From the NCBI RefSeq assembly GCF_035474595.1, contig NZ_DATIND010000145.1, forward strand, positions 1 to 51,038: DNA of 51,038 nt. Direction: 5' to 3'. Positions 22,929 through 39,478 of the stretch are shown piece by piece. The notes under the pieces were generated by a model that did not search any database, was not told the DNA's origin, and saw nothing but the letters and a program-made list of their open reading frames with translations. How positions within the stretch are numbered: the stretch's first letter is position 1; every line of letters starts with the position of its first letter. Origin of the DNA: Longimicrobium sp. Lineage in GTDB: Bacteria; Gemmatimonadota; Gemmatimonadetes; Longimicrobiales; Longimicrobiaceae. The position numbers were made by a program, and so were the translations under genes.

Positions 22929-25211
22929 TTGAGCGACGCCGCCGCTTCCGCACGCTCCGCGACCCCCGCCGTCCTCCGCCCCGACGCGGGGCTGATGGCG
23001 CTGTTCGTGGCGCTCCTGCTGATCCTGGCCACGCTGCTGGGGCTGGCCAACGCGGGGTTCCGCAAGGTGGCGGCGGCCAACCGCTGGAGCATCCACACCT
23101 GGCAGGTGATCACCGAGGCCGAGGGGCTGGGCGCCGCGCAGGCCGAGATGGAGACCACCTACCGCGGCTTCGGCATCTCCGGCGACCCGCAGTTCCTGGC
23201 CGGGTGGAGCGAGGGCGCCCGCGACTGGGACGGGCACCTGGCCGCGCTGCGCCGGCTGACCGCCGACAACCCCCGCCAGCAGGCGCGCCTCCGCCGCATC
23301 ACGGCGCTGCAGGCGCGCTTCCGCGCGGGGCAGGCCGGGCCCATGTCCGCCCGCGAGGGCGACAGCGCGGCCATGCGCGCGGCGCGGGCCACCGCGGGCG
23401 ATGTGCGCGCGCTCACCGCCCGCCGCGCCGTGGCCGACTCCATCCGCCAGACGCTGGCCGAGGTGCGCGGCGAGGAGTTCTCCCTGCTGGGCCGCCGCGC
23501 GCAGGAGGCGCGGGCGCTGGAGCGGCGCACCGCCTTCCTGGTGCTGAGCGGAGGGATCCTCGCGGTCCTCCTGGCCGTCGGCGCCGGCGTGCTGGTCGTG
23601 CGCCGGACGGCGCGATTGCGCGAGGCCAACCGTCTCCTCACCGCCGAGGCGGCCGAGCGCATCCTGGCGCGGCAGGCGGCCGAGCGGCTGGCGCGGCAGA
23701 ACGAGCTGATCCTGAACGCCGCGGCCGAGGGGATCTACGGGCTGGACGCGCACGGCTACACCACCTTCGCCAACCCCGCGGCGGCGGCCATGCTGGGGTA
23801 CGCCCCCGACGACCTTCCCGGGCGGCCGTACGAGGCCACGCTGCTGTCGTCCGACGGCGGGCACGACCCCATCCGCGCCGCCCTCCTCTCCGGCGAGACG
23901 AAGACCGCGAAGGACGCCACCTTCCGCCGCGCCGACGGCCGTCGCTTCCCGGTGGAGTTCACCTGCACGCCCATCGTGGAGGAGGAGCGCATCGCCGGCG
24001 TGGTGGTCACCTTCCGCGACGTGACCGAGCGCCGCGAGGTGGACCGCATGAAGGACGAGTTCATCTCCGTGGTCAGCCACGAGCTGCGCACGCCGCTCAC
24101 CGCCATCCGCGGCTCGCTGGGGCTGCTGGCCTCGGGGAAGGCGGGCGAGGTGCCGCAGCGCGGGCAGCGGATGCTGGAGATCGCCGTCCAGAACACCGAC
24201 CGCCTCATCCGCCTCATCAACGACATCCTGGACATCGAGCGGATCGAGTCCGGGAAGGTGGCCATGGAGCCGCGGCCGGTGAACGCGGCCGAGCTGGCGC
24301 AGAACGCCGCCGAGGTGATGATGCCCATGGCCGAGCGCGCCGGCGTGGGCGTCTACGTGTGGGCCGAGCCGGTGGCCCTGGTGGCCGACCCCGACCGCCT
24401 CCTGCAGGTGCTCACCAACCTCATCTCCAACGCGGTGAAGTTCTCCAACCCCGGGGGCACGGTGGAGCTGACGGTGGAGCCGGAGGGCGAGGACGCGATG
24501 TTCCGCGTGACCGACCACGGGCGCGGCATTCCCGCCGACCGGCTGGAAAGCATCTTCGAGCGCTTCCAGCAGGTGGACTCGTCGGATTCGCGGCAGAAGG
24601 GCGGAACGGGGCTGGGGCTGGCCATCTGCCGCACCATCGTGGGGCAGCACGGGGGGCGGATCTGGGCCGAGAGCGTGCTGGGCGAGGGAAGCACGCTGGC
24701 CTTCACCCTCCCGCTCCCCGCGCGCGAGCCGGCCGAGGTCGAGGCGGCGCCGCGCCCGGGCGACCCCGACCCCGTGGTTCCCGAGCCGGCGGACGGGCGC
24801 AAGCACGTCCTGGTGGTGGAGGACGACGCCGACCTGGCGGGCGTGCTGGCCGAGACCTTCCAGCGGCAGGGCGTGGCGGCCGAGGTGGCGGGAACGGGGG
24901 AGAGCGCGTGGGGCGCCGCGCGCCGCCGCACGCCGGACGCCGTGGTGCTCGACATCGCCATCCCCGAGGGCGACGGCTACTGGCTGGCCGAACGCTTCCG
25001 CGAGCACGAGGGGCTGCGCGACGTGCCGATCGTGGCGTATACCGCGCTGGACCTGGACGAGCCCGGCCGCGAGCGCCTGCGCCGCGCCGGGGTGGAGGTG
25101 CTGATCAAGAGCCGCATCGAGCCGGTGGAGCTGGAGCGGCGCGTCCTGGCGCTGCTCACGCAGGCGGAGGCGCGGGCGGGCGGGGGGCAGGGCGGGGGCG
25201 GCGAATCGTGA
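22929..25211 (+). CDS. Hybrid sensor histidine kinase (CHASE3-PAS-HisKA-HATPase-REC)
   Basis: 760 residues. Two transmembrane segments (about 20-42 and 195-220) flank a CHASE3-type extracellular sensor. A PAS domain follows (LILNAAAEGIYGLDAHGYTTFANPAAAAMLGY), then HisKA with His384 in SVVSHELRTPLTAIRGSL, the ATPase with N, G1 and G2 boxes (NLISNAVKFSNPGG, VTDHGRGIPADRLE, KGGTGLGLAI), and a C-terminal receiver with Asp675 (AVVLDIAIPEGDG). The receiver lysine motif reads LIKSRI rather than KP. The start is TTG 22929 behind AAAGG. Phosphate probably passes from His384 to Asp675 and on to an Hpt; one occurs two genes downstream. Confidence 0.92.
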   Translation: MSDAAASARSATPAVLRPDAGLMALFVALLLILATLLGLANAGFRKVAAANRWSIHTWQVITEAEGLGAAQAEMETTYRGFGISGDPQFLAGWSEGARDWDGHLAALRRLTADNPRQQARLRRITALQARFRAGQAGPMSAREGDSAAMRAARATAGDVRALTARRAVADSIRQTLAEVRGEEFSLLGRRAQEARALERRTAFLVLSGGILAVLLAVGAGVLVVRRTARLREANRLLTAEAAERILARQAAERLARQNELILNAAAEGIYGLDAHGYTTFANPAAAAMLGYAPDDLPGRPYEATLLSSDGGHDPIRAALLSGETKTAKDATFRRADGRRFPVEFTCTPIVEEERIAGVVVTFRDVTERREVDRMKDEFISVVSHELRTPLTAIRGSLGLLASGKAGEVPQRGQRMLEIAVQNTDRLIRLINDILDIERIESGKVAMEPRPVNAAELAQNAAEVMMPMAERAGVGVYVWAEPVALVADPDRLLQVLTNLISNAVKFSNPGGTVELTVEPEGEDAMFRVTDHGRGIPADRLESIFERFQQVDSSDSRQKGGTGLGLAICRTIVGQHGGRIWAESVLGEGSTLAFTLPLPAREPAEVEAAPRPGDPDPVVPEPADGRKHVLVVEDDADLAGVLAETFQRQGVAAEVAGTGESAWGAARRRTPDAVVLDIAIPEGDGYWLAERFREHEGLRDVPIVAYTALDLDEPGRERLRRAGVEVLIKSRIEPVELERRVLALLTQAEARAGGGQGGGGES

Positions 25212-25436: not shown

Positions 25437-25814
25437 ATGAGCCGACGCATCCTGATCGTGGACGACGAGGACGACATCCGCGAGGTCGCGCAGATGTCGC
25501 TGGAGATGGTGGCCGGCTGGGAGGTGATCCCCGCCTCCAGCGGCGAGGAGGGGATCCGGCTGGCGGCCGAGCACCGGCCCGACGCCATTCTCCTGGACGT
25601 GATGATGCCGGGGATGGACGGCCCCGCCACGGCCCAGCGCCTGGGCGAGGACGCGGCCACCTCGGCCATTCCCATCATCCTGCTGACCGCCAAGGTGCAG
25701 GCCGCCGACCGCCGCCGCTTCGAGGGGCTGGGGGTGGCCGGGGTGCTGGCCAAGCCGTTCGACCCCATGGACCTGGCGCGCCAGGTGTCGGCCTCGCTGG
25801 GGTGGCCGGAGTGA
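25437..25814 (+). CDS. Single-domain response regulator (CheY-like)
   Basis: 125 residues consisting of one receiver domain: RILIVDDEDDIREVA (acidic pocket), Asp54 in AILLDVMMPGMDG, Thr in ILLTAK and Lys106 in LAKPFDP. With no output domain, it works as a phosphate shuttle or by protein contact. It lies 225 bp after the hybrid kinase and its stop overlaps the GTG of the multidomain receiver/GGDEF gene, so the three likely form one phosphorelay. The 225-bp gap has no gene. Confidence 0.93.
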   Translation: MSRRILIVDDEDDIREVAQMSLEMVAGWEVIPASSGEEGIRLAAEHRPDAILLDVMMPGMDGPATAQRLGEDAATSAIPIILLTAKVQAADRRRFEGLGVAGVLAKPFDPMDLARQVSASLGWPE

Positions 25815-28279
25815 GCGGAAGTCCGCCCGCGCGGGTGCTGGTGGCCGGCTTCGGCGACGCCGTGGCCGGCTTCCTGGCGCGCCAGCTGCGCGGCGTGACG
25901 GTGGAAACGGCGCCCGACGCCGCCGCCGCGCGCGCCGAGCTGGCCCGCGGCGGGTGGGCGCTCCTGCTGGTCGACGACGCCATCCCCGGCGGCCCCGCGC
26001 GCGACCTGCTGCGCGGCACCGAACCCCATCCCCCCACCTTCCTCTGCCTGGAGCGCGGCACCCGCGCCTCGCTCACCCGCGCCGACCTGGACGCGCTCGG
26101 CGTGGCGCGCATCTTCTTCCACCCGCTGGACCGCCAGGCGCTGGTGCGCGAGGCCGGCGCCGTGCTGGGCACCGGCGGGCCGTCGCCCGACGACCCGCGC
26201 GACGTGGCCGCCGCCGCCGGAGAGGCGAAGCGCGGCGCGCTGGCCGACGCGGTGCGGCAGGCGTGGGAGCGCTTCCGCGGCGCGGTGATGGAACGGGTGG
26301 ACGCCGTCGAGTCGGCCGCGGTGGCCGTGCTGGAGGGGGGGCTGGACGAGGAGAGCCGCCGCCACGCCGAGCGCGAGGCGCACAAGCTGGCGGGCTCCGT
26401 GGGCACCTTCGGCTTCGCGCAGGGGTCGCGGCTGGCGCGCGAGATCGAGCTCCTGCTGCAGGGCGCGGCGCCGCTGGGGCAGGCCGAGGCGCTGAAGCTC
26501 ACCGACCTGGTCGTCGCGCTCCGCCGCGAGCTGGCGCGGCCGCCCACGCCCGCCGCCGACCCCTCCGCGTCGCGCGAGCGTGTCGCGGCGCCGCCGCAGG
26601 CCGGGCCGGCGACGGGCGCGCGGCTCCCGCTGCTGCTGATCGTGGATGACGACGCCGAGCTGGCCGACCGCATCGCCATGGAGGCGGGCGGGCGGGGGTT
26701 CCGCACGCGCGTGGCCCCCGGCGTGGCCGAGGCGCGCGCCGCGGTGGCCGAGGAGCGCCCCGCCGCCGTCCTCCTGGACCTTTCCTTCGAGCGGGGGGAG
26801 AGCGGGCTCTCGCTCCTTTCCGAGCTGGCGTCGCGCACCCCGCGCGTCCCCGTCCTGGTCCTCACCGCGCGGGGCTCGTTCACCGACCGCGTGGACGTGG
26901 CGCGGATGGGGGGGATGGGGTTCCTGCAGAAGCCGGTGCCCCCCGCCGCCGCGGTCGACGCGGTGCAGGGGGTGCTGCACCGCGGCCGCGACCGCCACGC
27001 CTGCGTGCTGGTGGTGGACGACGACCCGCTGGTGCTGGCCAGCGTGGGCTCGCTGCTCGAGGCGGGCGGGGTGAAGGTGCACACGCTGGACGACCCGCTC
27101 CGCTTCTGGGAGGCGCTGGAGGAGTTCTGCCCCGACGTGGTGATCCTCGACATCGACATGCCGCGGGTGAACGGGATCGAGCTCTGCCGCGTGCTGCGCA
27201 ACGACACCCGCTGGGGCGCCACCCCGGTGGTCTTCCTCACCGCGCGCGCCGGCCCGGAAACGGTGCAGCAGGTGTTCAGCGCGGGCGCCGACGACTTCGT
27301 GGCCAAGCCCATCGTGGGCCCCGAGCTGGTCACCCGCATCACCAACCGCCTGGAGCGCGTGCAGCTGCACCGGGCGCTGGCGGATACCGATCCGCTCACC
27401 GGCGTGGCGAACCGGCGGCGGTCGGAGGAGCTGATGGGGCAGCTGCTGAACCTGGCCGTGCGCCACCAGCAGCCCTTCTCGCTGGCGCTGCTGGACCTTG
27501 ACCACTTCAAGCAGGTGAACGACCAGCACGGCCACGGCACGGGCGACGAGGTGCTGCGGCGCGTGGCCCGCATGCTGGAGCGCAGCTTCCGCGCGGAAGA
27601 CGTGGTGGCGCGGTGGGGCGGGGAAGAGTTCCTCGTCGCCATGCACGGGATGGACAAGGACGACGGGGTGCAGCGCCTGGCCGAGGTGCTCGAGGTGCTG
27701 CGCGACGAGCCCTTCGAGGTTCCCGGCGCCGAGCCGCTGCGGGTGACGTTCAGCGCCGGCGTGGCCCAGTACCCGATGGACGGCGGCGACCTGCAGGCGC
27801 TCTACCGCACGGCCGACGCGACGATGTACCAGGCCAAGGAGGCGGGGCGCGACCGCGTGCTTCCCGCGGGGTGGACGGCCGGGCAGCCCAGCACCGCCGA
27901 GCACGTGGACGTGCTGGTGGTGGAGGACGACCACACGCTGGCGCGCCTCCTCCTGCACGCGCTGGAAACGCGCGGCTGGCGCAGCCGCTGGATCGCCGAC
28001 GGACGCGAGGCCGCGCAGCAGCTCACCGGCAGCCGCCCCAGGCTGCGCGCGCGCGTGGTGCTGCTGGACGTGGACCTGCCGGGGATGGACGGCCACGCGC
28101 TGCTGCGCACCCTGGCGCGCGAGCGGGTGCTGGAGCGCACGCGCGTGATCGTGCTCACGGTGCGCGCGCACGAGGCCGAGGTGGTGCAGGCGCTGGAGGA
28201 AGGCGCGTTCGACCACGTGGCCAAGCCGTTCAGCGTGCCCATCCTGCTGCAGCGCATCCGGAGGGCGATGCGCGCATGA
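25811..28279 (+). CDS. Multidomain phosphorelay diguanylate cyclase (REC-like, Hpt, REC, REC, GGDEF, REC)
   Basis: 822 residues from the GTG overlapping the previous stop. Order: degenerate receiver-like domain (1-115; Asp55/56 kept, N-terminal acidic pair lost); Hpt with His191 in EAHKLAGSVGTFG; receiver with Asp323; receiver with Asp447 (VVILDIDMPRVNG); GGDEF with active GGEEF (603-607) and I-site RAED five residues before it; C-terminal receiver with Asp753 (LLDVDLPGMDG) and AKPF. It should both relay phosphate and synthesize c-di-GMP. The number of receivers and their position on both sides of the GGDEF are unusual. The upstream kinase and CheY-like protein are likely partners; the exopolysaccharide operon 420 bp downstream is a likely target. 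Confidence 0.92.
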   Translation: MSGSPPARVLVAGFGDAVAGFLARQLRGVTVETAPDAAAARAELARGGWALLLVDDAIPGGPARDLLRGTEPHPPTFLCLERGTRASLTRADLDALGVARIFFHPLDRQALVREAGAVLGTGGPSPDDPRDVAAAAGEAKRGALADAVRQAWERFRGAVMERVDAVESAAVAVLEGGLDEESRRHAEREAHKLAGSVGTFGFAQGSRLAREIELLLQGAAPLGQAEALKLTDLVVALRRELARPPTPAADPSASRERVAAPPQAGPATGARLPLLLIVDDDAELADRIAMEAGGRGFRTRVAPGVAEARAAVAEERPAAVLLDLSFERGESGLSLLSELASRTPRVPVLVLTARGSFTDRVDVARMGGMGFLQKPVPPAAAVDAVQGVLHRGRDRHACVLVVDDDPLVLASVGSLLEAGGVKVHTLDDPLRFWEALEEFCPDVVILDIDMPRVNGIELCRVLRNDTRWGATPVVFLTARAGPETVQQVFSAGADDFVAKPIVGPELVTRITNRLERVQLHRALADTDPLTGVANRRRSEELMGQLLNLAVRHQQPFSLALLDLDHFKQVNDQHGHGTGDEVLRRVARMLERSFRAEDVVARWGGEEFLVAMHGMDKDDGVQRLAEVLEVLRDEPFEVPGAEPLRVTFSAGVAQYPMDGGDLQALYRTADATMYQAKEAGRDRVLPAGWTAGQPSTAEHVDVLVVEDDHTLARLLLHALETRGWRSRWIADGREAAQQLTGSRPRLRARVVLLDVDLPGMDGHALLRTLARERVLERTRVIVLTVRAHEAEVVQALEEGAFDHVAKPFSVPILLQRIRRAMRA

Positions 28280-28284
28280 AGGGA

Positions 28285-28319
28285 GGGAACAGAGGACAGG
28301 GTACAGGGAACAGGGTGGA
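28285..28319 (+). repeat. Five GGGNACA heptads after a stop codon
   Basis: Units GGGAACA, GAGGACA, GGGTACA, GGGAACA, GGGTGGA, beginning 5 bp after the stop of the multidomain GGDEF gene. The same unit type occurs at 4692-4726. Confidence 0.7.
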
Positions 28320-28486
28320 CGTTCGCGCGTGCCACGCACCGGCGCGCGCCCTCGCCCCCGCGCCCTCCCCCCGCGCCGGAGGGCGCGACCCCCTCCCATT
28401 CCGGGAGGAGGTGGCCTTCCAGCATCTGCGCGAGAGCCAGCCGGGCGGGCACGATGCAGCCCCCGACGCGCGGATCTCGTCCAGCT

Positions 28487-28540
28487 ACCTCTCCCGGTAC
28501 GGGCGAGGTGGACGGCCTGGGCCGGCCGGAGAGGGCGCGG
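28487..28540 (+). repeat. Family D element, copy 1
   Basis: ACCTCTCCCG-GTA-CGGGCGAGGT hairpin (28487-28509, one mismatch) followed by GGACGGCCTGGGCCGGCCGG and AGAGGGCGCGG. A second copy at 41649 has a perfect stem. It lies in the 420-bp gap before the exopolysaccharide operon. Confidence 0.7.
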
Positions 28541-28581
28541 CGCATGGCGATGCGCGGATGCCCGTCATCGCGAAAACCGCA

Positions 28582-28651
28582 GGGGTTTCACGCAGGGAAG
28601 CAGAGCAGCGGAGATGTTTCCTCCGTTCCTCCGCGTCTCCGCGTGAACCCC
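28582..28651. repeat. Hairpin element with CTCCGCGTCTCCGCG text
   Basis: GGGGTTTCACGC (28582-28593) pairs with GCGTGAACCCC (28641-28651) with one bulge; the interior contains GCGGAG and CTCCGCG segments. It ends about 50 bp before the start of the HEAT gene. Apart from the repeats, 28280-28700 shows no gene. Confidence 0.6.
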
Positions 28652-28700
28652 TTTCTGGTTTTGGAGATGCGAAGGATCCATGGTGGATGGAGATCGCGCG

Positions 28701-29759
28701 ATGAGCTCCATCCGCCTGCTCGACCTGGCGCTGGTGGTGATCGGCGTGGCGTGGATCGCCAGCCTGGTCACCATCTTCGGCCACGGCGTGGCGATGGCGC
28801 TGCACGAGCGCCGCTCCGCCCCGCTGATGGAGCGCGGGCGGATGGCGCTGGCCGGCGTGGCCGTGCAGCCGCGCGTGGACCGCGCCGACGAGGCGTTCCT
28901 GCGCGCCCTGCCGCTGCGCCTGCAGATCCGCCTCTTCACCGAGCTGGCGCCCAGCATCGGCGGGGCGCAGCGGCGGCACCTGTCGGCGCTGGCGCGCGAG
29001 GTCGGGCTGGTGGAGGGCGCCGAGCGCCTCTGCAAGAGCCGCAAGTGGTGGAAGCGGCTGCGCGGCATCCGCCTGCTCACCGCGCTGGGCGGCGGCGAGG
29101 ACGTCGTCCCCCCGCTCTTCCGCGATCCCCATCCCGCCGTGCGTGCGGAAGCTGCCGAGTGGGCGGGGCAGAACCCCACGCCGGGCGTCATCCGCCGCCT
29201 CATCCTCCTCCTCGAATATCCCGAGGCGGTGGGAAGCTGGGTGCTGCGCGACTCGCTCATCCGCATCGGCCCGCCGGCGATCGACCCGCTGGCCGCGTAC
29301 CTGGAGACGCACGGCGGCGAGCAGGCCGAGGCCGCGCTCGAGGTGGCCACCGGCCTGGCCGACCCGCGCTTCGCCGCGGCGGCCGAGCGGCTGTGCGGGG
29401 ATGCCGACCCCGTCTGCCGCGCGCGCGCCGTCGCGCTCGCCGGCGCCATCGGCGGTGACGCGCTGGTGCGGCGCGCCGTCGGGCTGCTGGACGACGCCGA
29501 GCCCTCGGTCCGCGCCGCCGCGGCGGCCGCGCTGGGGCGGCTGGGGCACTGGCCCGCCGCCGCCCGGCTCGCGCGGATGCTGCGCGACCCCGCCTGGGTG
29601 GTGCGCAGCCAGAGCGCGCTGGCGATGCGGCGGCTGGGGAGCCCGGGGCAGCTGCTCCTTCGCCGCGCGCTGGACGACCGCGACCGCTTCGCCGCCGACA
29701 TCGCGCGGCAGGTGCTGGACATGCCCGAAACCACCACCGAGCGGGACCAGTGGCGATGA
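28701..29759 (+). CDS. Membrane-anchored HEAT-repeat protein of the exopolysaccharide operon
   Basis: 352 residues from ATG 28701 (GGAG eight bases upstream); an in-frame ATG at 28680 is the alternative. One N-terminal transmembrane helix (LLDLALVVIGVAWIASLVTIFG) is followed by a basic segment and HEAT/PBS-lyase-type repeats from about residue 95: WWKRLRGIRLLTALGGGEDVVPPLF, DPHPAVRAEAAEWAG, GSWVLRDSLIRIG, DADPVCRARAVALAGAIGG, DAEPSVRAAAAAALGRLG, DPAWVVRSQSALAMRRLG. It is probably a cytoplasmic scaffold tethered at the inner membrane. Its stop overlaps the start of the glycosyltransferase gene (ATGA), so a stoichiometric partnership with the synthase is likely. No enzymatic motif is seen. Confidence 0.8.
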   Translation: MSSIRLLDLALVVIGVAWIASLVTIFGHGVAMALHERRSAPLMERGRMALAGVAVQPRVDRADEAFLRALPLRLQIRLFTELAPSIGGAQRRHLSALAREVGLVEGAERLCKSRKWWKRLRGIRLLTALGGGEDVVPPLFRDPHPAVRAEAAEWAGQNPTPGVIRRLILLLEYPEAVGSWVLRDSLIRIGPPAIDPLAAYLETHGGEQAEAALEVATGLADPRFAAAAERLCGDADPVCRARAVALAGAIGGDALVRRAVGLLDDAEPSVRAAAAAALGRLGHWPAAARLARMLRDPAWVVRSQSALAMRRLGSPGQLLLRRALDDRDRFAADIARQVLDMPETTTERDQWR

Positions 29760-31258
29760 GCCCGTACTCGATCGCCGTCTGGATCCTGGTGAAGCTGGAG
29801 TGGGCGATCCTGGCCTACTTCCTCCTGGTGAACGGCTGGTACCTGGTCCTCCTGGCCAGCGCCGGGGTGGAGATGCGCCGCCACGTCCTCCTTTCGCGCG
29901 GGCAGGCGCGCTGGAAGATGCTGGGCTCGCGCGTGGTTCCCGGCATCTCCATGCTGGCCCCCGCCTACAACGAGGCCGCCACCATCGGCGAGAGCGTGCG
30001 CGCCCTGCTCGCGCTCTACTATCCCAACCTCGAGGTCGTGGTCGTCAACGACGGGTCGCGCGACGAGACCATGGCGGTGCTCATCGACCAGTTCGACCTG
30101 GCGCCCATCCACCCCATCTACCAGAAGCGCATCCACTCCGCCGAGGTCGTCTCCCTCTACCGCTCGCGCACGCACCCCAACCTGGTCGTCGTCGACAAGC
30201 GCAACGGCGGCAAGGCCGACGCGCTGAACGCGGGATTGAATCTGGCGACGGGCGACCTGGTCTGCGCCATCGACGCCGACACGCTGATCGAGCCCGACGC
30301 GCTGATCCGCATGGTGCGGCCCTTCATCGACGACGACGAGGTGATCGCCGCGGGGGGAACCATCCGCGTGGCCAACGCGTCGCGCGTGGAGAGCGGCCGC
30401 GTGGTGGAGACGCGGGTGCCGCGGCGCGCGCTCCCCGGCTTCCAGGTCGTCGAGTATCTCCGCGCCTTCCTCTTCGGGCGGCTGGGATGGAACCGGCTGG
30501 GCGGCAACCTCATCATCTCCGGCGCCTTCGGCCTCTTCCGCCGCGACCTGATGATCGCCGCGGGCGGGTACCTGGAAGAAACGGTGGGCGAGGACATGGA
30601 GCTGGTCCTGCGCCTGCGCCGCATCGGCTACGAGCGCAAGGGCGCGCACCGGGTGGACTTCATCCCCGACCCCGTGGCGTGGACCGAGGCGCCCTCCACC
30701 TTCCGCGTCCTCGCCCGGCAGCGCGACCGCTGGCAGCGCGGGCTGGCCGACGTGCTCTGGCGCCACCGCGGGCTCCTCTTCAACCCGAAGTACGGGCGGA
30801 TGGGCACCATCGTGTACCCGTACTTCGTGTTCAACGAGATGCTGGCGCCGGTGGTCGAGGCGGTGGGGTTCCTGGGGGTGATCCTTGGGCTGATGCTGAA
30901 CGCCATCGACTGGCCCTTCGCCATCCTCTTCTTCCTGACGGCGTACGGGCTGGGCGCGGTGCTGACCTTTACCGCGCTGGTGCTGGAGGAGATGAACTTC
31001 CACCGCTACCACACCTTCGGCGACCGGGTGATGCTGGTGGTCTGGGCGCTGCTGGAAAACCTGGGCTACCGGCAGCTGACGGTGATCTGGCGGCTGAAGG
31101 GGATGTGGAACTACGTCCGCGGCAGCAAGAGCTGGGGGAAGATGGATCGCAAGGGCTTCGCCCCCACCCCGGCGCAGGTGGCCGATGCCGACCGGGCGAT
31201 CGAGGCGGAGGCGGAGTCCTCCGGCTCGGCGAAGGTGAAGCGGCGGGTGCGGGTGTGA
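29756..31258 (+). CDS. Processive family-2 glycosyltransferase (polysaccharide synthase)
   Basis: 500 residues. N-terminal transmembrane helix (LEWAILAYFLLVNGWYLVLL), cytoplasmic GT-A domain, and three or four C-terminal transmembrane helices (EMLAPVVEAVGFLGVILGLML, FAILFFLTAYGLGAVLTFTAL, VMLVVWALLENLGY). Catalytic motifs: SMLAPAYNEA, VVVNDGSRDET, Asp173-Ala-Asp175, GEDMEL, and Gln322-x2-Arg325-Trp326, the QxxRW signature of processive synthases such as those for cellulose, hyaluronan and poly-N-acetylglucosamine. It lacks a PilZ domain, so any c-di-GMP control must act through another protein. It couples to the HEAT gene upstream. The sugar cannot be deduced from sequence. Confidence 0.9.
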   Translation: MSPYSIAVWILVKLEWAILAYFLLVNGWYLVLLASAGVEMRRHVLLSRGQARWKMLGSRVVPGISMLAPAYNEAATIGESVRALLALYYPNLEVVVVNDGSRDETMAVLIDQFDLAPIHPIYQKRIHSAEVVSLYRSRTHPNLVVVDKRNGGKADALNAGLNLATGDLVCAIDADTLIEPDALIRMVRPFIDDDEVIAAGGTIRVANASRVESGRVVETRVPRRALPGFQVVEYLRAFLFGRLGWNRLGGNLIISGAFGLFRRDLMIAAGGYLEETVGEDMELVLRLRRIGYERKGAHRVDFIPDPVAWTEAPSTFRVLARQRDRWQRGLADVLWRHRGLLFNPKYGRMGTIVYPYFVFNEMLAPVVEAVGFLGVILGLMLNAIDWPFAILFFLTAYGLGAVLTFTALVLEEMNFHRYHTFGDRVMLVVWALLENLGYRQLTVIWRLKGMWNYVRGSKSWGKMDRKGFAPTPAQVADADRAIEAEAESSGSAKVKRRVRV

Positions 31259-31301
31259 AGGGAGGTGTGCGGTCGGGCTGGCCGGTCGCGGGGATGCTGG
31301 A

Positions 31302-31355
31302 GAGCAGTCCCGCAGGGCCTTTGTGCGGTTGTTGCCGGTGAATTCCATTCACCGG
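31302..31355 (+). repeat. Family B paired-hairpin element, copy 1
   Basis: A damaged AGTCCC-GCA-GGGCCT hairpin, the linker TTGTGCGGTTGTTG, then a perfect hairpin CCGGTGAAT-TCC-ATTCACCGG (31335-31355). It lies between the synthase gene and the glycoside-hydrolase gene. Confidence 0.7.
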
Positions 31356-31410
31356 ATGCTAGACCGGTGATGAGCAGAGAGCTGACAAGATGCGTGGAGA
31401 GAAGGGCTTG

Positions 31411-34110
31411 ATGCAGTTCATCTTACGTGAATCCGATCTACGGATGCGGCGACGGATCGCGCTCGCGGCGATGGCGGCCGCGCTCGGCGGCGCGGCCGTG
31501 CCGACGCTGGGTGCGATGGGAATGCGGGGGGCGCAGGAGTGCCCCGAGGTCGCCAACCCGCTGGTGGAGCGCGGGTGGACGCTGTACCGCGCCAGCCAGA
31601 TCGACTCGGCGCGCGCGCGGTTCGACGCGGCGCTGCGGCGGTGCCCCACGCACGTCGGCGCGCGCGTGGGCAGCGGCTTCGCCATGCTCCGCGCCGGCGA
31701 CGTCCCCGGCGCGCGGCGGAGCTTCGAGGCCGTCATCGCCGCGGCGCCGCAGAACGTGGACGCGCTGGTCGGCCTCGGGCTGGCCGCGTGGCGGCAGGGC
31801 GACCAGGAGACGTCGCGGAGCGCGTTCACCCGCGTGCGCCGCATCGATCCCAACAACGCCGACGCGCGCGAGTACCTGGCGCGGCTGGGCGAGGCGCCGG
31901 TGGTCGTCCAGCGCGGTCCGCTCGTCATCCCCGACACCATCGTCTACCCCAGCCGCGCGCACGGCGACCGCTTCGAGGTGCGGACGGCGCGCGGGTGGGA
32001 GCCGTTCTACGTGAAGGGCGTGAACCTCGGCGCGGCCACGCCCGGGCATCATCCCAGCGAGTTCCCCGATTCGGCCACGTACGCCCGCTGGATCGCGCAG
32101 ATGGCGGAGATGGGCGCGAACACCGTGCGCGTCTACACCATCCATCCCCCCCACTTCTACCGCGCGCTGTACGCCTGGAACTCGGCGCACCGGGAGAATC
32201 CGCTGTGGATCATCCATGGCGTGTGGACCGAGTTGCCGGAGAACGACGACTTCGCCGACCCGCAGTGGGAGGGGCAGTTCTTCGCGGAGATGCAGCGCGT
32301 GGTCGACCTCCTGCACGGCCGCGCCGACCTCCCGCCGCGCCCCGGCCACTCCAGCGGGCAGTACACGGCCGACGTATCGCCCTGGGTGCTGGCGTGGATC
32401 ATCGGACGCGAGTGGGAGCCGTTCTCGGTGGGCGAGTTCAACGCGCGGCGGCCGAACTATCCCGCGTGGAGCGGGCGCTACCTCACCGTCGCCGGCGGCA
32501 CGCCGATGGACCGCTGGCTGGGGAAGGCGTGCGAGCACATCGTGGAGTACGAGGCGCGCACCTACCACGCGATGCGGCCGGTGGCCTACACCAACTGGCC
32601 CACGCTGGACCCGCTGAAGCACCCGACGGAGACCACGGTCGACGAGGAGATCTCCATCCGCACGCGCCTGGGCGAGCGGGTGGACCGCAAGCCGCTGGAG
32701 TACGACAACGACCGCATCGACCTGGACGCCTCGATCGTGCACCCGACCGCGGCGTACCCGGCGGGCTACTTCGCCAGCTTCCACGCGTATCCGTACTACC
32801 CGGACTTCATGGTGCTGGACCCGGGGTACAACCGCGCGTCGTCCAGCCTGGGGCGCAGCAACTACTTCGGCTACCTGCGCGAATTGAAGGCGCACCACCC
32901 GGGGATGCCGGTCGTCATCAGCGAGTACGGCGTACCGGGGTCGATGGGGAGCGCGCACCTGCAGCCCCAGGGATGGCACCACGGCGGCCACGACGAGGCG
33001 TCGATGGCCGAAGCCGATGCGCGGCTGACCCGCGAGATCGCCGAGAGCGGGATGGCCGGCGGGGCGATCTTCGCGTGGATCGACGAGTGGTTCAAGAAGA
33101 ACTGGATCGTCATCGACTTCGAGATTCCGCTGGAGCGCAACCGCCTCTGGCTGAACCGGCTCGATGCCGAGCAGCACTACGGGATGCTGACCGAGGAGCC
33201 CGGCGAGGTCGTCCGCGGCGCGACGCTGGCCGACCGGGCCTCCGCGTGGGCCGCGCGGCCGGTGCTGTACCGCACGCCGCAGGGCGTGGTGCGCGCCGCA
33301 GTGGACGAGGCGTACCTGTGGGTGGAGGTGGAGACGGCGGACGGCCGCGCGCCCGACGAGCTCTACCTCGGCTTCGACGTGGTGAAGCCCGACGCGGGCG
33401 ACTTCCGCTGGCCCGGCCGCGTCGGCGAGCGGCTGCCGGTGGGGATCGAGTTCGCGCTGCACGCCACGCGCGGCGGCGAGGTGCGGCTGCTGGCCGATCC
33501 CCCGTCGAACCCGTTCGCGATCGACCTGGTGAACCAGATCCCCGGCCAGCCCACGCCGCCGCCGCACATCGACAACCCGCTGCCGGGCTTCTTCTTCGGG
33601 CGCTACCAGTCGCGCTACAACCGGCCGTTCGTCACCCGCGCCAACGACGACGGGGTGTACGACTCGCTGCGCGTGGTCACCAACCGCCGCCGCTTCGGGC
33701 GCGACGGGACGGAGTTCGCCGCCTTCGGCTACGACCGCGGCATCCTGCGCCAGGGCCCGCCGCCGGACGGAAGCTGGGAGATGCTGGACCGCGGCGTCTT
33801 CGAGGTCCGCATCCCCTGGATGCTGCTGAACTTCACCGACCCCAGCGAGCGCCGCGTGCTGCAGGACGCGCCCGGCGCCAACCCGAACGGCGACTTCGGC
33901 ACGGAGACGGTTCCCGGGATCCGCATCGTGGCCGCGGCGCGGTCGGGAAGCCGGTGGACGCAGTGGCCCGCGTCCGGCGGCGCGTCCGCGGTGCCGCTCT
34001 TCACCTGGCCCACGTGGGAGATGCCGCGCTCCCGCGAGCGCATCCGCCCCGTCTTCGGCGCCATGCGCGACGCCTTCCGCACCATGGACCCGCCGGTGAT
34101 GCACCGATGA
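31411..34110 (+). CDS. Exported TPR plus glycoside-hydrolase-like (clan A type) protein
   Basis: About 899 residues. The ATG at 31411 follows GAGAAGGG; ATGs at 31390 and 31444 also precede the signal-like hydrophobic stretch (RRRIALAAMAAALGGAAVP). TPR units cover about 45-145. A TIM-barrel region follows: YVKGVNLGAATPGHHP, MGANTVRVYTIHPPHFY, WIIGREWEPF with Glu334 (likely acid/base) and VVISEYGVPG with Glu505 (likely nucleophile), the layout of clan GH-A enzymes. The C-terminal 300 residues are beta-rich and may bind carbohydrate. Its stop overlaps the next gene (ATGA). By position it corresponds to the periplasmic modifying or trimming enzyme of a synthase-dependent export system. Confidence 0.78.
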   Translation: MQFILRESDLRMRRRIALAAMAAALGGAAVPTLGAMGMRGAQECPEVANPLVERGWTLYRASQIDSARARFDAALRRCPTHVGARVGSGFAMLRAGDVPGARRSFEAVIAAAPQNVDALVGLGLAAWRQGDQETSRSAFTRVRRIDPNNADAREYLARLGEAPVVVQRGPLVIPDTIVYPSRAHGDRFEVRTARGWEPFYVKGVNLGAATPGHHPSEFPDSATYARWIAQMAEMGANTVRVYTIHPPHFYRALYAWNSAHRENPLWIIHGVWTELPENDDFADPQWEGQFFAEMQRVVDLLHGRADLPPRPGHSSGQYTADVSPWVLAWIIGREWEPFSVGEFNARRPNYPAWSGRYLTVAGGTPMDRWLGKACEHIVEYEARTYHAMRPVAYTNWPTLDPLKHPTETTVDEEISIRTRLGERVDRKPLEYDNDRIDLDASIVHPTAAYPAGYFASFHAYPYYPDFMVLDPGYNRASSSLGRSNYFGYLRELKAHHPGMPVVISEYGVPGSMGSAHLQPQGWHHGGHDEASMAEADARLTREIAESGMAGGAIFAWIDEWFKKNWIVIDFEIPLERNRLWLNRLDAEQHYGMLTEEPGEVVRGATLADRASAWAARPVLYRTPQGVVRAAVDEAYLWVEVETADGRAPDELYLGFDVVKPDAGDFRWPGRVGERLPVGIEFALHATRGGEVRLLADPPSNPFAIDLVNQIPGQPTPPPHIDNPLPGFFFGRYQSRYNRPFVTRANDDGVYDSLRVVTNRRRFGRDGTEFAAFGYDRGILRQGPPPDGSWEMLDRGVFEVRIPWMLLNFTDPSERRVLQDAPGANPNGDFGTETVPGIRIVAAARSGSRWTQWPASGGASAVPLFTWPTWEMPRSRERIRPVFGAMRDAFRTMDPPVMHR

Positions 34111-35924
34111 CGAACCGCATGCGCATCTTCCTCCCGCTCTTCGCGTTCCTCACCCTCGCGTGGGCGGCGCCGGCGCGCGCGCAGGACGCGGCCGACCGCG
34201 CGTGGGCCGCGGGGAACGTGGCCGAGGCGGGGCGATTGTACGAGCAGCGCCTGCGCGCGGACAGCAACGACGTGCGCGCGCTGCACCGCGTGGCCCTGGT
34301 CCGCGCGTGGGACGGCAGGTACGACGAGGCGCTGGCGCTGCTCGACCGCGCGCTGCGGCTGACGCCGAGCGACGTGGAGACGCAGGTGGACCGCGCGCGC
34401 GTGCTGGCGTGGAAGGGCGATCCGGCCGGCGCGGTGACGGCGCTGGAGCCGGTGCTGCAGCAGAACCCGGCGTACCTCCCGGCGCTGCAGGCGCGCGCGC
34501 AGTTCCTGTCGTGGGCGGGGGACTTCAACGCGTCGCTGCAGACCTACGGCAGGATCCTGGAGATCGCGCCGGGCGACCGGGCGATCGGGCTGGAGCGGGC
34601 GCGGGTGCTGTCGTGGGCCTCGCGCTTCGCCGCGGCCCGGGCGGCGTACGACTCCATCCTGCGCCGCGACCCGCGCGACCACGACGCGCTGCTGGGGATG
34701 GCGCAGGTGCTGTCGTGGGAGGGAAAGCTGGACTCGGCGGAGGTGGTCTACGGCCGCCTGCTGGAGATCAACGGCAACGACGTGCAGGCGATGCAGGGCC
34801 TCGCGCGGACGGCTGCCTGGCGCGGCGACCTGCTCGCGGCCGAACGGCGCTGGCGGCGCGTCCTCGCCCGCAACCCGGACGATCCGGCGGCGCTGGTCGG
34901 CCTGTCGCAGACGCTGCGGTGGCAGGGGAGGGACGCGGCCGCGCTCGAGGCCGCCCGCCGCGCCATCCGCGCCGCCCCCACGGACCGCGACGCGCGGACG
35001 GAGCTTACCTGGGCGGCCCTGCCGACGCGCCCCGCGGTGGCCCCGGCGTTCACCTATGAGACGGACTCGGACGGGAACCGCATCTCCACGATCTCCTCCA
35101 GCGCCGCCTTCCGCCCCGACCCGCGGGTGGAGGTCCGCGCGGACGCGTACCTCCGCGACGCGCGGCTGGAGGGCTCGGCCACGCCGGACGGCACCTCGAA
35201 GGGCGTGGGACTGGGGATCCGGACGCAGCTGGAGCCCGGCTGGTGGCTCTCGGCGGGCGGCGGCGTCACGCAGACCGACCGCGCGGGCGAGGACACGCGG
35301 GCCAGCTGGCGCGCGGCGGTCTCGTCTCCCGGCCGCTATCCGGTGACGGCCACGCTGGCGTACAACCGCACGCCGCTGGACGCCACCGCGCTCCTCATCC
35401 AGCGCGAGGTGGACGTGGACGAGCTGACGCTCTCGGCCGGCTTCGTTCCCGCGCAGGGGTGGGCGATCAGCGCGGGCGGCGGCGGCGCGGACTTCCACGG
35501 CCGCGTGTCGGGCGAGACGAACCGGCGCACGAACGGCAACGTCGCCGTGACGCGGCGGCTGGCGCGCTTCTTCACGCTGGGTGCGGCGGGGCGGGCGTTC
35601 GGGTTCGACCAGGACCTGAACGACGGCTACTTCGACCCCGACCTGTACTGGATCGGCGAGGCGCTGGGCCGCTTCGGGCGCGAGTGGCGGCACGTGGGCG
35701 TGAGCGCGGAGGTGGCGCCCGGCATTCAGCAGGTCCGCACCGGCGGCGACCGCAGCGCGACGCTGCGCGCCAGCGGCGGCCTGAGCTACACCGTGGCCCC
35801 CGGCCGCCGCATCGGCGTCTCCGCCGGCTACGCCAACGCCGGCCTCCAGCGCCTCTCGCCCACCGACACAGGCGGCGGCTACCGCTACACGGCCGTCAGC
35901 GTGAGCGCCAACTGGGCGTTTTGA
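34107..35924 (+). CDS. TPR plus outer-membrane beta-barrel protein (YaiO/PgaA-like exporter)
   Basis: 605 residues. Signal peptide MRIFLPLFAFLTLAWAAPARAQ; about eight TPR motifs from 25 to 310 (NDVRALHRVALVRAWDGRYDEAL, DVETQVDRARVLAWKGDPAGAV and onward); then a barrel of alternating strands from about 325 to the end, closing with the aromatic C-terminal pattern SANWAF expected by the BAM machinery. The barrel resembles the YaiO family, and the TPR-barrel layout is that of PgaA, BcsC and AlgK/E. It should form the outer-membrane pore for a polysaccharide, with the TPR part in the periplasm. Last gene of the operon; TTGACA overlaps its stop. Confidence 0.82.
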   Translation: MTNRMRIFLPLFAFLTLAWAAPARAQDAADRAWAAGNVAEAGRLYEQRLRADSNDVRALHRVALVRAWDGRYDEALALLDRALRLTPSDVETQVDRARVLAWKGDPAGAVTALEPVLQQNPAYLPALQARAQFLSWAGDFNASLQTYGRILEIAPGDRAIGLERARVLSWASRFAAARAAYDSILRRDPRDHDALLGMAQVLSWEGKLDSAEVVYGRLLEINGNDVQAMQGLARTAAWRGDLLAAERRWRRVLARNPDDPAALVGLSQTLRWQGRDAAALEAARRAIRAAPTDRDARTELTWAALPTRPAVAPAFTYETDSDGNRISTISSSAAFRPDPRVEVRADAYLRDARLEGSATPDGTSKGVGLGIRTQLEPGWWLSAGGGVTQTDRAGEDTRASWRAAVSSPGRYPVTATLAYNRTPLDATALLIQREVDVDELTLSAGFVPAQGWAISAGGGGADFHGRVSGETNRRTNGNVAVTRRLARFFTLGAAGRAFGFDQDLNDGYFDPDLYWIGEALGRFGREWRHVGVSAEVAPGIQQVRTGGDRSATLRASGGLSYTVAPGRRIGVSAGYANAGLQRLSPTDTGGGYRYTAVSVSANWAF

Positions 35925-35989
35925 CAGGCTTGTGTGCTCGCTAGTTGCTGCGTATCGTCCGATGGATATTTATCTGGAGTCACAATTTC

Positions 35990-36688
35990 ATGAGCGAAGA
36001 CAACCACTGGCTTCGAAATTACGTTGTTGCGCCGCTGGTCGTGGCTATTATCGCGGCGGTATTCACGTACTACCTCACTTCGCGCGGAAAAGAAAAGGCC
36101 GAACTTAGCTATCGAATAGACACACCTAGTGAATTCCTGTCCCAGCGGATTCAGGGGCTGCGGGTCGTCCTTGGTACAAACGCGGTTTCCTTTCCGGTGC
36201 TCTATCGTGTGACCGTATGGAATTCTGGAGATGTGACCATCAAGGACATTCCGGTGAGCCTCGTGTTTCGGGAACGTGATTCAGCTTTCTCAATTCTTGT
36301 CGTCCAGCATCAGACGGTACCAGCGTTCGAGTTCGGGCCGATTCGGGACACAACTGCTGAAGCGATCCCGTCAGGATTTCAAGCTCGACGCTTCGTCTAT
36401 TCACAACTGGATCCACGCGATCTCGATCATATCTCGATTCTGACTGATGGCCGTGGAGAGCTGGCTATTTACGCAAAAGGCCGTGGAACCCATGTGTCGG
36501 TTGTAAACCAGACGAACCGAAGACCCAGCATCATCCTGTTCGCAGTTGTTGCGATGCTTCTTTCGATTGCCGCAACGCTGTTGCCGAAAGCTGCCCGGCT
36601 GGTACCCGTGTGGAAACCGCAATTCCGAGTGATCAGAGTGATCGACACGGAGGAGCTGGAGCGAAAAGAGCCGCCCCGATCTCAATGA
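35990..36688 (+). CDS. Two-helix membrane protein of lower GC content
   Basis: 232 residues from ATG 35990 with GGAG ten bases upstream. One transmembrane helix near the N-terminus (NYVVAPLVVAIIAAVFTYYL) and one near residue 180-197 (SIILFAVVAMLLSIAATLL) enclose a beta-rich domain (ELSYRIDTPSEFLSQRI, LYRVTVWNSGDVTIKDIPVSLVF, HISILTDGRGELAIYAKG). I do not recognize the family. Base use is plainly different from the neighbours, with many A/T third positions, so recent acquisition is likely. The stop codon lies in the loop of the terminator hairpin. Similar two-helix proteins occur near defence genes, but no such context is visible here. Confidence 0.65.
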   Translation: MSEDNHWLRNYVVAPLVVAIIAAVFTYYLTSRGKEKAELSYRIDTPSEFLSQRIQGLRVVLGTNAVSFPVLYRVTVWNSGDVTIKDIPVSLVFRERDSAFSILVVQHQTVPAFEFGPIRDTTAEAIPSGFQARRFVYSQLDPRDLDHISILTDGRGELAIYAKGRGTHVSVVNQTNRRPSIILFAVVAMLLSIAATLLPKAARLVPVWKPQFRVIRVIDTEELERKEPPRSQ

Positions 36689-37480: not shown

Positions 37481-39136
37481 CTACGCCGTCGCCGGCTTGC
37501 GGCCGACGGGGATCAGGCGCCGCATGGCCTTCCACTCGCCCGCGCGGAAGAAGCGGGTGAGCACGAGCAGGGCGGGGAAGGCCACCACCAGCAGCAGCTT
37601 CACCCCGATCGACCGGCCCTCCGTGGGCCCCCACCCGTGCGTGGCCAGCCACTGGTCCGCGAAGTAGAGCGCGGCCACGATCGCCGCCAGGTGCGCCAGC
37701 CGCGCCCACTCCCAGGGCACCGGGTACACGCGGTTGCTCTGCCACGCGCCCAGCGCCGCCATCAGCGCGTAGCTGGCCGGCGTGGCCCACGCCACCGCCA
37801 CCATCGAGTGCCGCGCCGCGACCACGCAGATGGCGATGTTGATGGCCGCGCCGGCGCCCGCGATCCACGGCAGGATCCCCGTCTTCTTCTCGATGTACAG
37901 CCCCGCCGTGACCACCGCGTACATGGCGCTGAACACGTACCCCAGAAGGATGATGGGAACGATGGAGAGCCCCAGCCAGTACGCCGGCGAGCTGGCGATG
38001 TGGCGGATCTTGGGGATTCCGGCCAGCGTGGGGATGAAGAGCGCCAGGCCCAGGAACGCGAACGCGCAGAGCAGCATCACCGACGTCAGCACGCGCGTGA
38101 ACAGGTGCGGCGCGTCGCGGTCGCGGCCGTGCTGCAGCGAGAAGGGCGTCCACGCCATGCGGAACATCTGCGCCAGCAGGAGCATGGCCACGCCCAGCTT
38201 GTAGTTGAAGTTGTAGATCCCCAGCACGTCCTTGGTGGCCATCCCGTACACCGCCTTCGAGACGCTGTCCGGGAGGAGGTTCAGCACCAGCCGGTCGCCG
38301 TTCTCCACGATCATCACCGCGAACATGGCGGGCATGATGGGGAGCGCGTACGTCCACAGCGGCTTCCAGTTCACCCCGCGCAGCAGGCGCGGGCGGAAGA
38401 GCCGCGCGATCTCGCTGGTGAAGAGCGCGAGGACCACCAGGTTGGCGACCAGGTTGGCCAGGAAGATGGCGCTGATCCCCCAGTGCAGGAACGCGATCAG
38501 GATCACGTTCAGCACGATGCTGACGGCCACGAAGAGCAGCCGCAGCACGGCGTACCGCTTGGCGCGCCCGGTCATCCGCAGGTGCGCGTAGGGGACGGCG
38601 ATCAGCGCGTCGGTGTAGACGATGCCGATCAGGTACAGGAACCCGTCGGCCGGCAGCTTCATGCCGTGCGACAGCCAGCGCGACCCCAGCGCGCCCACCA
38701 GCAGCGCCGCCGCCCCGGCGACCGCCACGATGCCGAAGGGCATGCTGAACGCGCGCTGCCGCTCTTCCAGCGGTTTGTCCTTCACCGCGGCGGCGCTGCG
38801 CATGTAGGCCACGTCCATCCCCAGCAGGAAGACGATGGAGAGCATGGGCGCGTAGGTGTAGACCGCGCTCTGCACCCCGTTGGCCGCGGGGGGGAAGTAG
38901 GCGACGTACAGGAACTGCAGCGCGTAGCTCAGGAAGCGGCCGAACACGGAGCTGAGGCCGTAGATCAGCGACTCGCTCCCCAGCCGCTTCAGCTTGCTGG
39001 CGAAGCCGCCGCCGCTGGCGCCGGTGATGGGCGCGCCCGGCGCGCCGCCCTCGATGGGCGACTGCGTGTCGCCCGCCTCGGGGCGGGGCATCAGCAGCGT
39101 CTCGTCGTCGTCCCGCTCGATATCCTGGGCGCTCAT
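37481..39136 (-). CDS. Polysaccharide flippase / O-antigen transporter-like protein (MOP superfamily)
   Basis: 551 residues with about 14 predicted transmembrane helices, starting ESLIYGLSSVFGRFLSYALQFLYVAYF after a 50-residue polar N-terminus and ending RLIPVGRKPATA. The size, the helix number and conserved early text (GLSSVFGRFL, PLWTYALPIMPAMFA) fit Wzx-type flippases of the MOP superfamily, which move lipid-linked sugars across the inner membrane. The ATG at 39136 is the first that precedes the polar stretch. No glycosyltransferase cluster adjoins it, but polysaccharide genes lie on both sides at a distance (synthase operon; heptose kinase, phosphomannomutase). Minus strand, apparently alone, ending before family A/B elements. 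Confidence 0.82.
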   Translation of the reverse strand: MSAQDIERDDDETLLMPRPEAGDTQSPIEGGAPGAPITGASGGGFASKLKRLGSESLIYGLSSVFGRFLSYALQFLYVAYFPPAANGVQSAVYTYAPMLSIVFLLGMDVAYMRSAAAVKDKPLEERQRAFSMPFGIVAVAGAAALLVGALGSRWLSHGMKLPADGFLYLIGIVYTDALIAVPYAHLRMTGRAKRYAVLRLLFVAVSIVLNVILIAFLHWGISAIFLANLVANLVVLALFTSEIARLFRPRLLRGVNWKPLWTYALPIMPAMFAVMIVENGDRLVLNLLPDSVSKAVYGMATKDVLGIYNFNYKLGVAMLLLAQMFRMAWTPFSLQHGRDRDAPHLFTRVLTSVMLLCAFAFLGLALFIPTLAGIPKIRHIASSPAYWLGLSIVPIILLGYVFSAMYAVVTAGLYIEKKTGILPWIAGAGAAINIAICVVAARHSMVAVAWATPASYALMAALGAWQSNRVYPVPWEWARLAHLAAIVAALYFADQWLATHGWGPTEGRSIGVKLLLVVAFPALLVLTRFFRAGEWKAMRRLIPVGRKPATA

Positions 39137-39324
39137 CGTCTTTCGTGAAAACGCGGGCGGGGATCGGGCACCGCGCCGCGGCTCGTGCGTAGGGGGATCC
39201 GCATCACCCTGCGGCCTCAGGCAAACCGGGGGCCGCGCCGCCGAACCATGCGCACGCCGCGCCCAGCGGGCAGCGGTGGGAGGCCGGCAGGGTGGCGTCG
39301 GCGGCCGCATAGCCACGGGAGCTG

Positions 39325-39478
39325 CCCCCGTCACCGGCGGCTGAAGCCGCAGCAACAACTACGGGAAGCCTCGCAAACGGCGCGAGGCTGTTCGGGTCGA
39401 AAGCTGGTTCCGGCTCCGGAGGACGCCTCCCTATCATCCATCGTGGTCGCGCGCGGCGCGGTGTTCGACTCAGGATGA
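39325..39478 (-). repeat. Family A element, long copy 3
   Basis: Hairpin 2 at 39337-39350, hairpin 1 at 39367-39389, and an outer block to 39478 containing TCATCCTGAGTCGAACACCG in minus orientation. The outer block is shared with copy 4 at 50870, so the full element is about 150 bp. Confidence 0.7.

Follow-up and report, generated by a model that had tools for sequence, protein, structure and literature searches.

The window analysed here is a stretch of 51,038 nucleotides from Longimicrobium sp. (contig NZ_DATIND010000145.1, positions 1 to 51,038), and four adjacent genes in it (28701-35924) very probably produce a sugar polymer and secrete it. They encode a HEAT-repeat membrane protein, a family 2 glycosyltransferase (GT2), a glycoside hydrolase with tetratricopeptide repeats (TPRs) and a TPR export porin, and it is from the features of the last three that we infer synthesis of a polymer. 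Many biofilms have synthase-dependent polymers as their backbone, and cyclic di-GMP (c-di-GMP) is the control commonly ascribed to such polymers. In the case of this cluster we favor, with some reserve, a synthase-dependent exopolysaccharide secretion system whose core comprises a receiver (REC) domain, the HEAT protein and the GT2, and in which the phosphorylated REC docks on the HEAT protein and thereby gates the synthase. The cluster and the signalling genes upstream of it, all on the same strand, are laid out as follows.

22929-25211, + strand: hybrid histidine kinase with two transmembrane (TM) segments, CHASE3, PAS, HisKA, HATPase and REC domains (Pfam)
25437-25814, + strand: stand-alone REC protein, 125 residues (PF00072, 1.6e-24)
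25802-28279, + strand: phosphorelay/diguanylate cyclase protein with domain order degenerate REC-Hpt-REC-REC-GGDEF-REC (Pfam and sequence reading)
28280-28700, no strand: spacer between the REC/GGDEF gene and the HEAT gene, with a dispersed repeat at 28575-28670
28701-29759, + strand: HEAT-repeat membrane protein, 352 residues (PF13646, 1.2e-16)
29756-31258, + strand: processive-type GT2 synthase with an N-terminal hydrophobic segment, a cytosolic catalytic domain and a C-terminal TM bundle (Pfam/NCBIfam and motifs)
31444-34110, + strand: exported protein with TPRs, a clan-A (beta/alpha)8 glycoside hydrolase domain and a C-terminal beta-sandwich region (model and fold match)
34107-35924, + strand: TPR protein (8 repeats) with a predicted 16-strand outer-membrane export porin (AlphaFold model)

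Neighbourhoods of GT2 relatives were scored with profiles, which gave 89 loci with a GT2 above 200 bits. Relatives turned up in 58 of the 200 genomes examined from the window's phylum (Gemmatimonadota) and in 49 of 198 from Bacteroidota, the phylum to which a Carboxylicivirga genome belongs. Others were carried by plasmids of Mesorhizobium, Devosia, Erythrobacter, Legionella, Deinococcus, Paenibacillus, Planococcus, Emticicia, Bacteroides and three haloarchaea. A HEAT gene lay directly upstream of the GT2 gene in 87 of the 89 loci, with a median gap of 0 bp. The two exceptions are a locus that runs off its contig and one with a partial GT2. The initial annotation, made from the sequence of the window, had described the coupling of a HEAT protein to the synthase as unusual and had proposed a search for co-occurrence. 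The neighbours proved not to be random and the coupling is real, yet it can hardly be called unusual, since 87 of the 89 loci share it. It marks a large family and is no peculiarity of this cluster.

In a tree built from a MAFFT alignment, the HEAT-paired GT2s formed one clade (31 sequences, ultrafast bootstrap 96), which excluded PgaC, IcaA, YaiP, NfrB, BcsA, ArnC and fused deacetylase-type GT2s; the placement of BcsA, NfrB and ArnC is weak, some matches being short domain matches, and the HEAT-paired clade holds. Ten GT2 loci outside the clade had no HEAT neighbour. Among plasmid GT2s, those paired with HEAT had 31-45% identity and scores of 240-390 bits, and the others scored below 165 bits. 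At least four deep lineages show the arrangement, namely the window's phylum, Bacteroidota, haloarchaea and Alphaproteobacteria, and in the last of these a barrel or TPR gene sits between REC and HEAT.

HEAT partners were located by position and profile, because the HEAT sequence diverges too fast; a tblastn search of the plasmids with the HEAT protein returned no match. A scan of genome contigs with peptide patterns gave one distant match, the patterns being too specific. In the HEAT alignment, the row of one locus (L094), read in the wrong frame, was disregarded. Enlarged HEAT partners were seen at L101 (3689-7201) and L099 (3628-5919), with up to 1170 and 763 residues and 11 and 7 HEAT_2 stretches, respectively.

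A REC-encoding gene ended within 150 bp of the HEAT gene in 64 of the 89 loci; when the limit was widened to 3 kb, with the strand the same, the number rose to 73. The background frequency of REC domains is low, at 71 in the whole 6.57-Mb genome. In all 64 of the close cases REC was the last domain of its protein, preceded by nothing, by Hpt, by more RECs or by GGDEF, and the residues of phosphorylation were kept across them (acceptor Asp in 86%, the DD pair in 90% and Lys in 96%). The haloarchaeal unit is a plain REC-HEAT-GT2 and several Bacteroidota carry histidine kinase-REC-HEAT-GT2; in both, a stand-alone REC adjoins HEAT. The window has the same arrangement, as its HEAT gene is directly upstream of the GT2 gene, its GT2 falls in the clade and the preceding gene ends in REC. 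From this order we take the REC-ending protein to belong to the core with HEAT and GT2. The four genes that the initial annotation had proposed as a unit are real but are therefore not the whole unit, and its account had stopped short of the signalling genes upstream. A receiver without DNA-binding output must work either by touching another protein or as part of a phosphorelay. HEAT is its likeliest contact because REC constantly adjoins it; both the contact and the direction of control are what we infer from this arrangement.

In another genome of the same genus (L048), all seven genes occur in identical order, its lone REC is 73% identical and in the same position, and HEAT begins 3 bp past the REC/GGDEF gene. 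In the window, the C-terminal REC of the 25802-28279 protein is the part common to all relatives, while its first REC is a degenerate pseudoREC and its GGDEF domain looks active (GGEEF with an RxxD I-site). The kinase at 22929-25211 is likely the input of the module. Under the mechanism we propose, the GT2 would link units of an activated sugar into a chain in the cytosol and push this chain through its TM bundle; in the periplasm the TPR-hydrolase would trim the chain or set it free, and the TPR porin would carry it outside. HEAT, fixed in the membrane next to the synthase and exposing its solenoid to the cytosol, would be the regulatory subunit, and the phosphorylated C-terminal receiver of the protein encoded upstream would dock on this solenoid and gate the synthase post-translationally. 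In the window's genome, the kinase would set both receiver phosphorylation and local c-di-GMP, because the REC protein also bears Hpt and the active-looking GGDEF.

That GGDEF raises the alternative in which c-di-GMP does the switching: the protein encoded upstream would be a local diguanylate cyclase for this synthase, and the RECs would control the cyclase only. The window protein has a complete GGDEF, its genome contains 18 GGDEF matches, and c-di-GMP is the usual control of synthase-dependent systems (PMC8669469). Against this, a Pfam search showed no domain known to bind c-di-GMP, such as PilZ or MshEN, in either the HEAT protein or the GT2. Many relatives lack GGDEF while the C-terminal REC is constant, with most Bacteroidota loci and the haloarchaea carrying REC only. 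No GGDEF match was found in Haloferax and Bacteroides control genomes, and c-di-GMP is therefore unlikely to be the common denominator of the family. We regard this alternative as improbable, though it is the strongest competitor of direct gating by REC.

Several observations weigh against direct gating of the synthase through HEAT. The counts above include many loci inside one phylum, which are not independent of each other. REC was not nearby in Deinococcus, both Bacillota, Bacteroides, Legionella and several Bacteroidota loci, and no REC-HEAT, HEAT-GT2 or REC-GT2 fusion open reading frames (ORFs) occurred among the loci. In the window itself, 421 bp separate the REC/GGDEF gene from HEAT, and this gap holds a dispersed repeat (28575-28670) with 50 matches in the genome, dozens of them partial; several lie on both strands at one place, so the repeat is partly palindromic. 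Co-transcription of the REC/GGDEF gene and HEAT is consequently uncertain in the window. Moreover, the coupling of HEAT to GT2 (87 of 89) is stricter than that of REC to HEAT (64 of 89), and REC-less loci exist, as would be expected if HEAT were a constitutive structural or assembly subunit, a counterpart of PgaD or BcsB, and the RECs a phosphorelay for other targets. This second alternative does not readily explain the constant position of REC at the end of the protein that precedes HEAT, where no DNA-binding output follows it. Nor does it fit easily with three loci that keep HEAT beside a dead GT2 and have no REC. We give it a small chance, somewhat below that of the c-di-GMP switch.

The three loci with degenerate GT2s come from three species of one genus (L102 6903-8258, L103 9063-10616 and L104 9222-10625), and no REC was found upstream of their HEAT genes. 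The sequences of L102 and L104 were read and have lost DxD, ED and QxxRW, and L103 is a close match to both by score. It is possible that the degenerate GT2 and HEAT form a pseudoenzyme pair.

Within the cluster, the positions of the four ORFs and the two ATGA overlaps reported in the initial annotation, between HEAT and GT2 (29756-29759) and between TPR-hydrolase and TPR-barrel (34107-34110), were confirmed, with one refinement. The hydrolase ORF opens at 31390, but the in-frame ATG at 31444 directly precedes the signal peptide and is for that reason the likelier start. The description of the products held as well, namely a HEAT membrane protein, a processive GT2, an exported protein with TPRs and a clan-A hydrolase-like domain, and a TPR protein with an outer-membrane barrel. 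So did the statement that PilZ, deacetylase and Bcs domains are missing, none being found in the four proteins by Pfam search, and a synthase-dependent exopolysaccharide cluster is supported by the GT2, porin and hydrolase features. A scan of 28200-36100, limited to sigma-70, detected no consensus of a promoter or terminator.

The HEAT protein has, besides its PF13646 match, a single TM segment near the N-terminus (residues 9-27) with positive residues after it, from which the solenoid should be cytosolic. In the GT2, the motifs DGS, NGGKAD, DAD, GED and QRDRW (the last for QxxRW) are intact and the TM pattern is that of processive synthases; on account of these motifs and this topology, the protein would polymerise an activated sugar and extrude the chain via its own TM bundle. 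The closest NCBIfam family is PgaC/IcaA (TIGR03937, 137 bits against a cut-off of 422). A GT2 that glycosylates a lipid or builds a short glycolipid, with no exported polymer, is very unlikely: the LtaS-like sulfatase-fold domain that is part of the GT2 or comes after it in Bacteroidota would suit this reading, but QxxRW and the TM pattern, scores of about 30 bits for lipid transferase families, a tree in which the GT2 does not cluster with the distant ArnC (a check suggested at the outset) and a PgaA/BcsC-type porin encoded in the same operon all oppose it.

The model of the porin, computed by AlphaFold from 10 relatives, comprises 8 TPRs followed by 16 strands, with a predicted local distance difference test score (pLDDT) of 87.5. 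Its top structural match is the PgaA barrel (4y25, Z 27.6, root-mean-square deviation 2.1, 273 residues), followed by BcsC (6tzk, Z 26.9) and PelB (9h80, Z 25.4), all three of which are polysaccharide export porins. The YaiO barrel family PF19413 gave no match in the window barrel at E 0.01, but YaiO barrels accompany Bacteroidota and Mesorhizobium relatives; a deacetylase such as YaiS is absent from the cluster.

The hydrolase region, modelled from 11 relatives, is predicted to be a (beta/alpha)8 fold (pLDDT 77). Its nearest fold is a GH157 endo-beta-1,3-glucanase (9g4n, Z 29.5 over 316 residues, 16% identity), and GH2 glucuronidases come next. No Pfam family matched the domain above its cut-off, GH72 appearing as a sub-threshold hint, and a search of PDB sequences with the hydrolase profile gave no match, so that the placement comes from fold search. 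Two Glu residues are invariant in 11 of 11 homologues, E169 (in REWEP) and E340 (in ISEYG) in the numbering of the hydrolase region, and they form a putative catalytic pair in the expected places. The predicted hydrolase thus combines a signal peptide, a clan-A fold and a conserved Glu pair, as a periplasmic enzyme of this kind would. The GH157 fold and the weak GH72 match point faintly to a beta-1,3-glucan-like chain as the polymer. The product may also be an undescribed glycan, as the initial annotation had thought likely. The hydrolase of the Planococcus plasmid locus (L106) lacks both catalytic glutamates.

The genes accompanying the core differ among lineages. In the window's phylum the TPR-hydrolase and TPR-barrel genes are linked; the window's genus has them in tandem, and elsewhere their orientation differs. 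Deinococcus has TPR-hydrolase-HEAT-GT2, and the monoderms Paenibacillus and Planococcus have hydrolase-HEAT-GT2 without TPR or barrel. The TPRs on the hydrolase, which the initial annotation had listed as unusual, are accordingly found in the window's phylum and Deinococcus and not in Bacillota. On the Planococcus plasmid (L106 4030-12384), genes for a polyphosphate-polymerase-domain protein, DUF4956 and CotH precede hydrolase-HEAT-GT2. In Bacteroidota, an LtaS-like sulfatase-fold domain is fused to or lies beside the GT2, and some loci have a YaiO barrel; the GT2 ORFs of L123 and L125-L128 are 1134-1260 residues long, and the LtaS-like fusion was confirmed by Pfam in L123, L126 and L128. This fusion suggests phosphoglycerol or phosphoethanolamine decoration of the polymer. 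A dehydrogenase and epimerases are found at the Legionella locus, and a nucleotidyltransferase and GlmS at that of Halosolutus. Hydrolase, LtaS-like transferase or sugar-nucleotide genes therefore occupy an exchangeable accessory slot, and since these genes vary by lineage, the polymer probably differs among lineages as well.

We give about even chances to a broader claim, in which REC-HEAT-GT2 is a general and ancient means of direct two-component control of polymer-making glycosyltransferases, independent of c-di-GMP and of envelope type, found in diderms and haloarchaea, with REC-less HEAT-GT2 in monoderms and with swappable modification and export genes. If true, it would add a second, direct route from sensor kinase to polymer synthesis in phyla with and without c-di-GMP. 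The module also provides a sequence signature by which annotators could recognise many loci that now bear no label but 'HEAT repeat protein' and 'glycosyltransferase'.

Elsewhere in the window, the product of 12620-13822 (- strand) combines YadA head repeats with a Peptidase_S74 (endosialidase chaperone) domain and is an unusual trimeric surface protein. A second GGDEF domain of the window (8862-9335) lies in the gene at 7497-9368 (+ strand), and the product of 37481-39358 (- strand) resembles a Wzx/MOP-type flippase by eye, with no Pfam match at 1e-5.

No published description of a HEAT-GT2 polysaccharide system was found in the open-licence literature, which is not proof of absence, and the main text of an operon survey (PMC7112194) names neither HEAT nor response regulators. 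The receiver-HEAT-synthase module of several bacterial phyla and haloarchaea is thus apparently undescribed. Among known systems, Pga (pgaABCD, poly-N-acetylglucosamine) is like the cluster in having a processive GT2, a periplasmic glycoside hydrolase and TPRs with a 16-strand porin, but the cluster has no PgaD or deacetylase and HEAT stands in the place of PgaD; its hydrolase is nearest to GH157 and not to PgaB, and its GT2 is below the TIGR03937 cut-off and outside the PgaC/IcaA branch. The GH157 endo-beta-1,3-glucanase shares the (beta/alpha)8 fold, to which the window hydrolase adds TPRs and an extra C-terminal region. Bcs cellulose synthase also combines a GT2, a hydrolase and a TPR porin, whereas the cluster is without PilZ or BcsB. 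The same genome has a GT2-PilZ protein of 787 residues on a separate contig (C64, 70633-72231), which is probably a cellulose synthase. NfrB/NfrA/YbcH and YaiP/YaiO of E. coli likewise pair a GT2 with a TPR or barrel export protein, and NfrB has a diguanylate cyclase of its own, DgcJ (PMC8669469). The GT2 of the cluster differs from NfrB in having no C-terminal MshEN domain; NfrB and YaiP fall outside the HEAT-paired clade and the E. coli loci have no HEAT gene. Regarding control, the phosphoglycosyl transferase EpsZ of Myxococcus xanthus is switched on through direct interaction with EpsW, a single-domain REC protein, in its phosphorylated form (PMC12802240). As in our proposal, a receiver without DNA-binding output controls a polysaccharide enzyme post-translationally; EpsZ, unlike the GT2 of the cluster, belongs to a Wzx/Wzy pathway rather than a synthase-dependent one, and EpsW acts without a HEAT adaptor.

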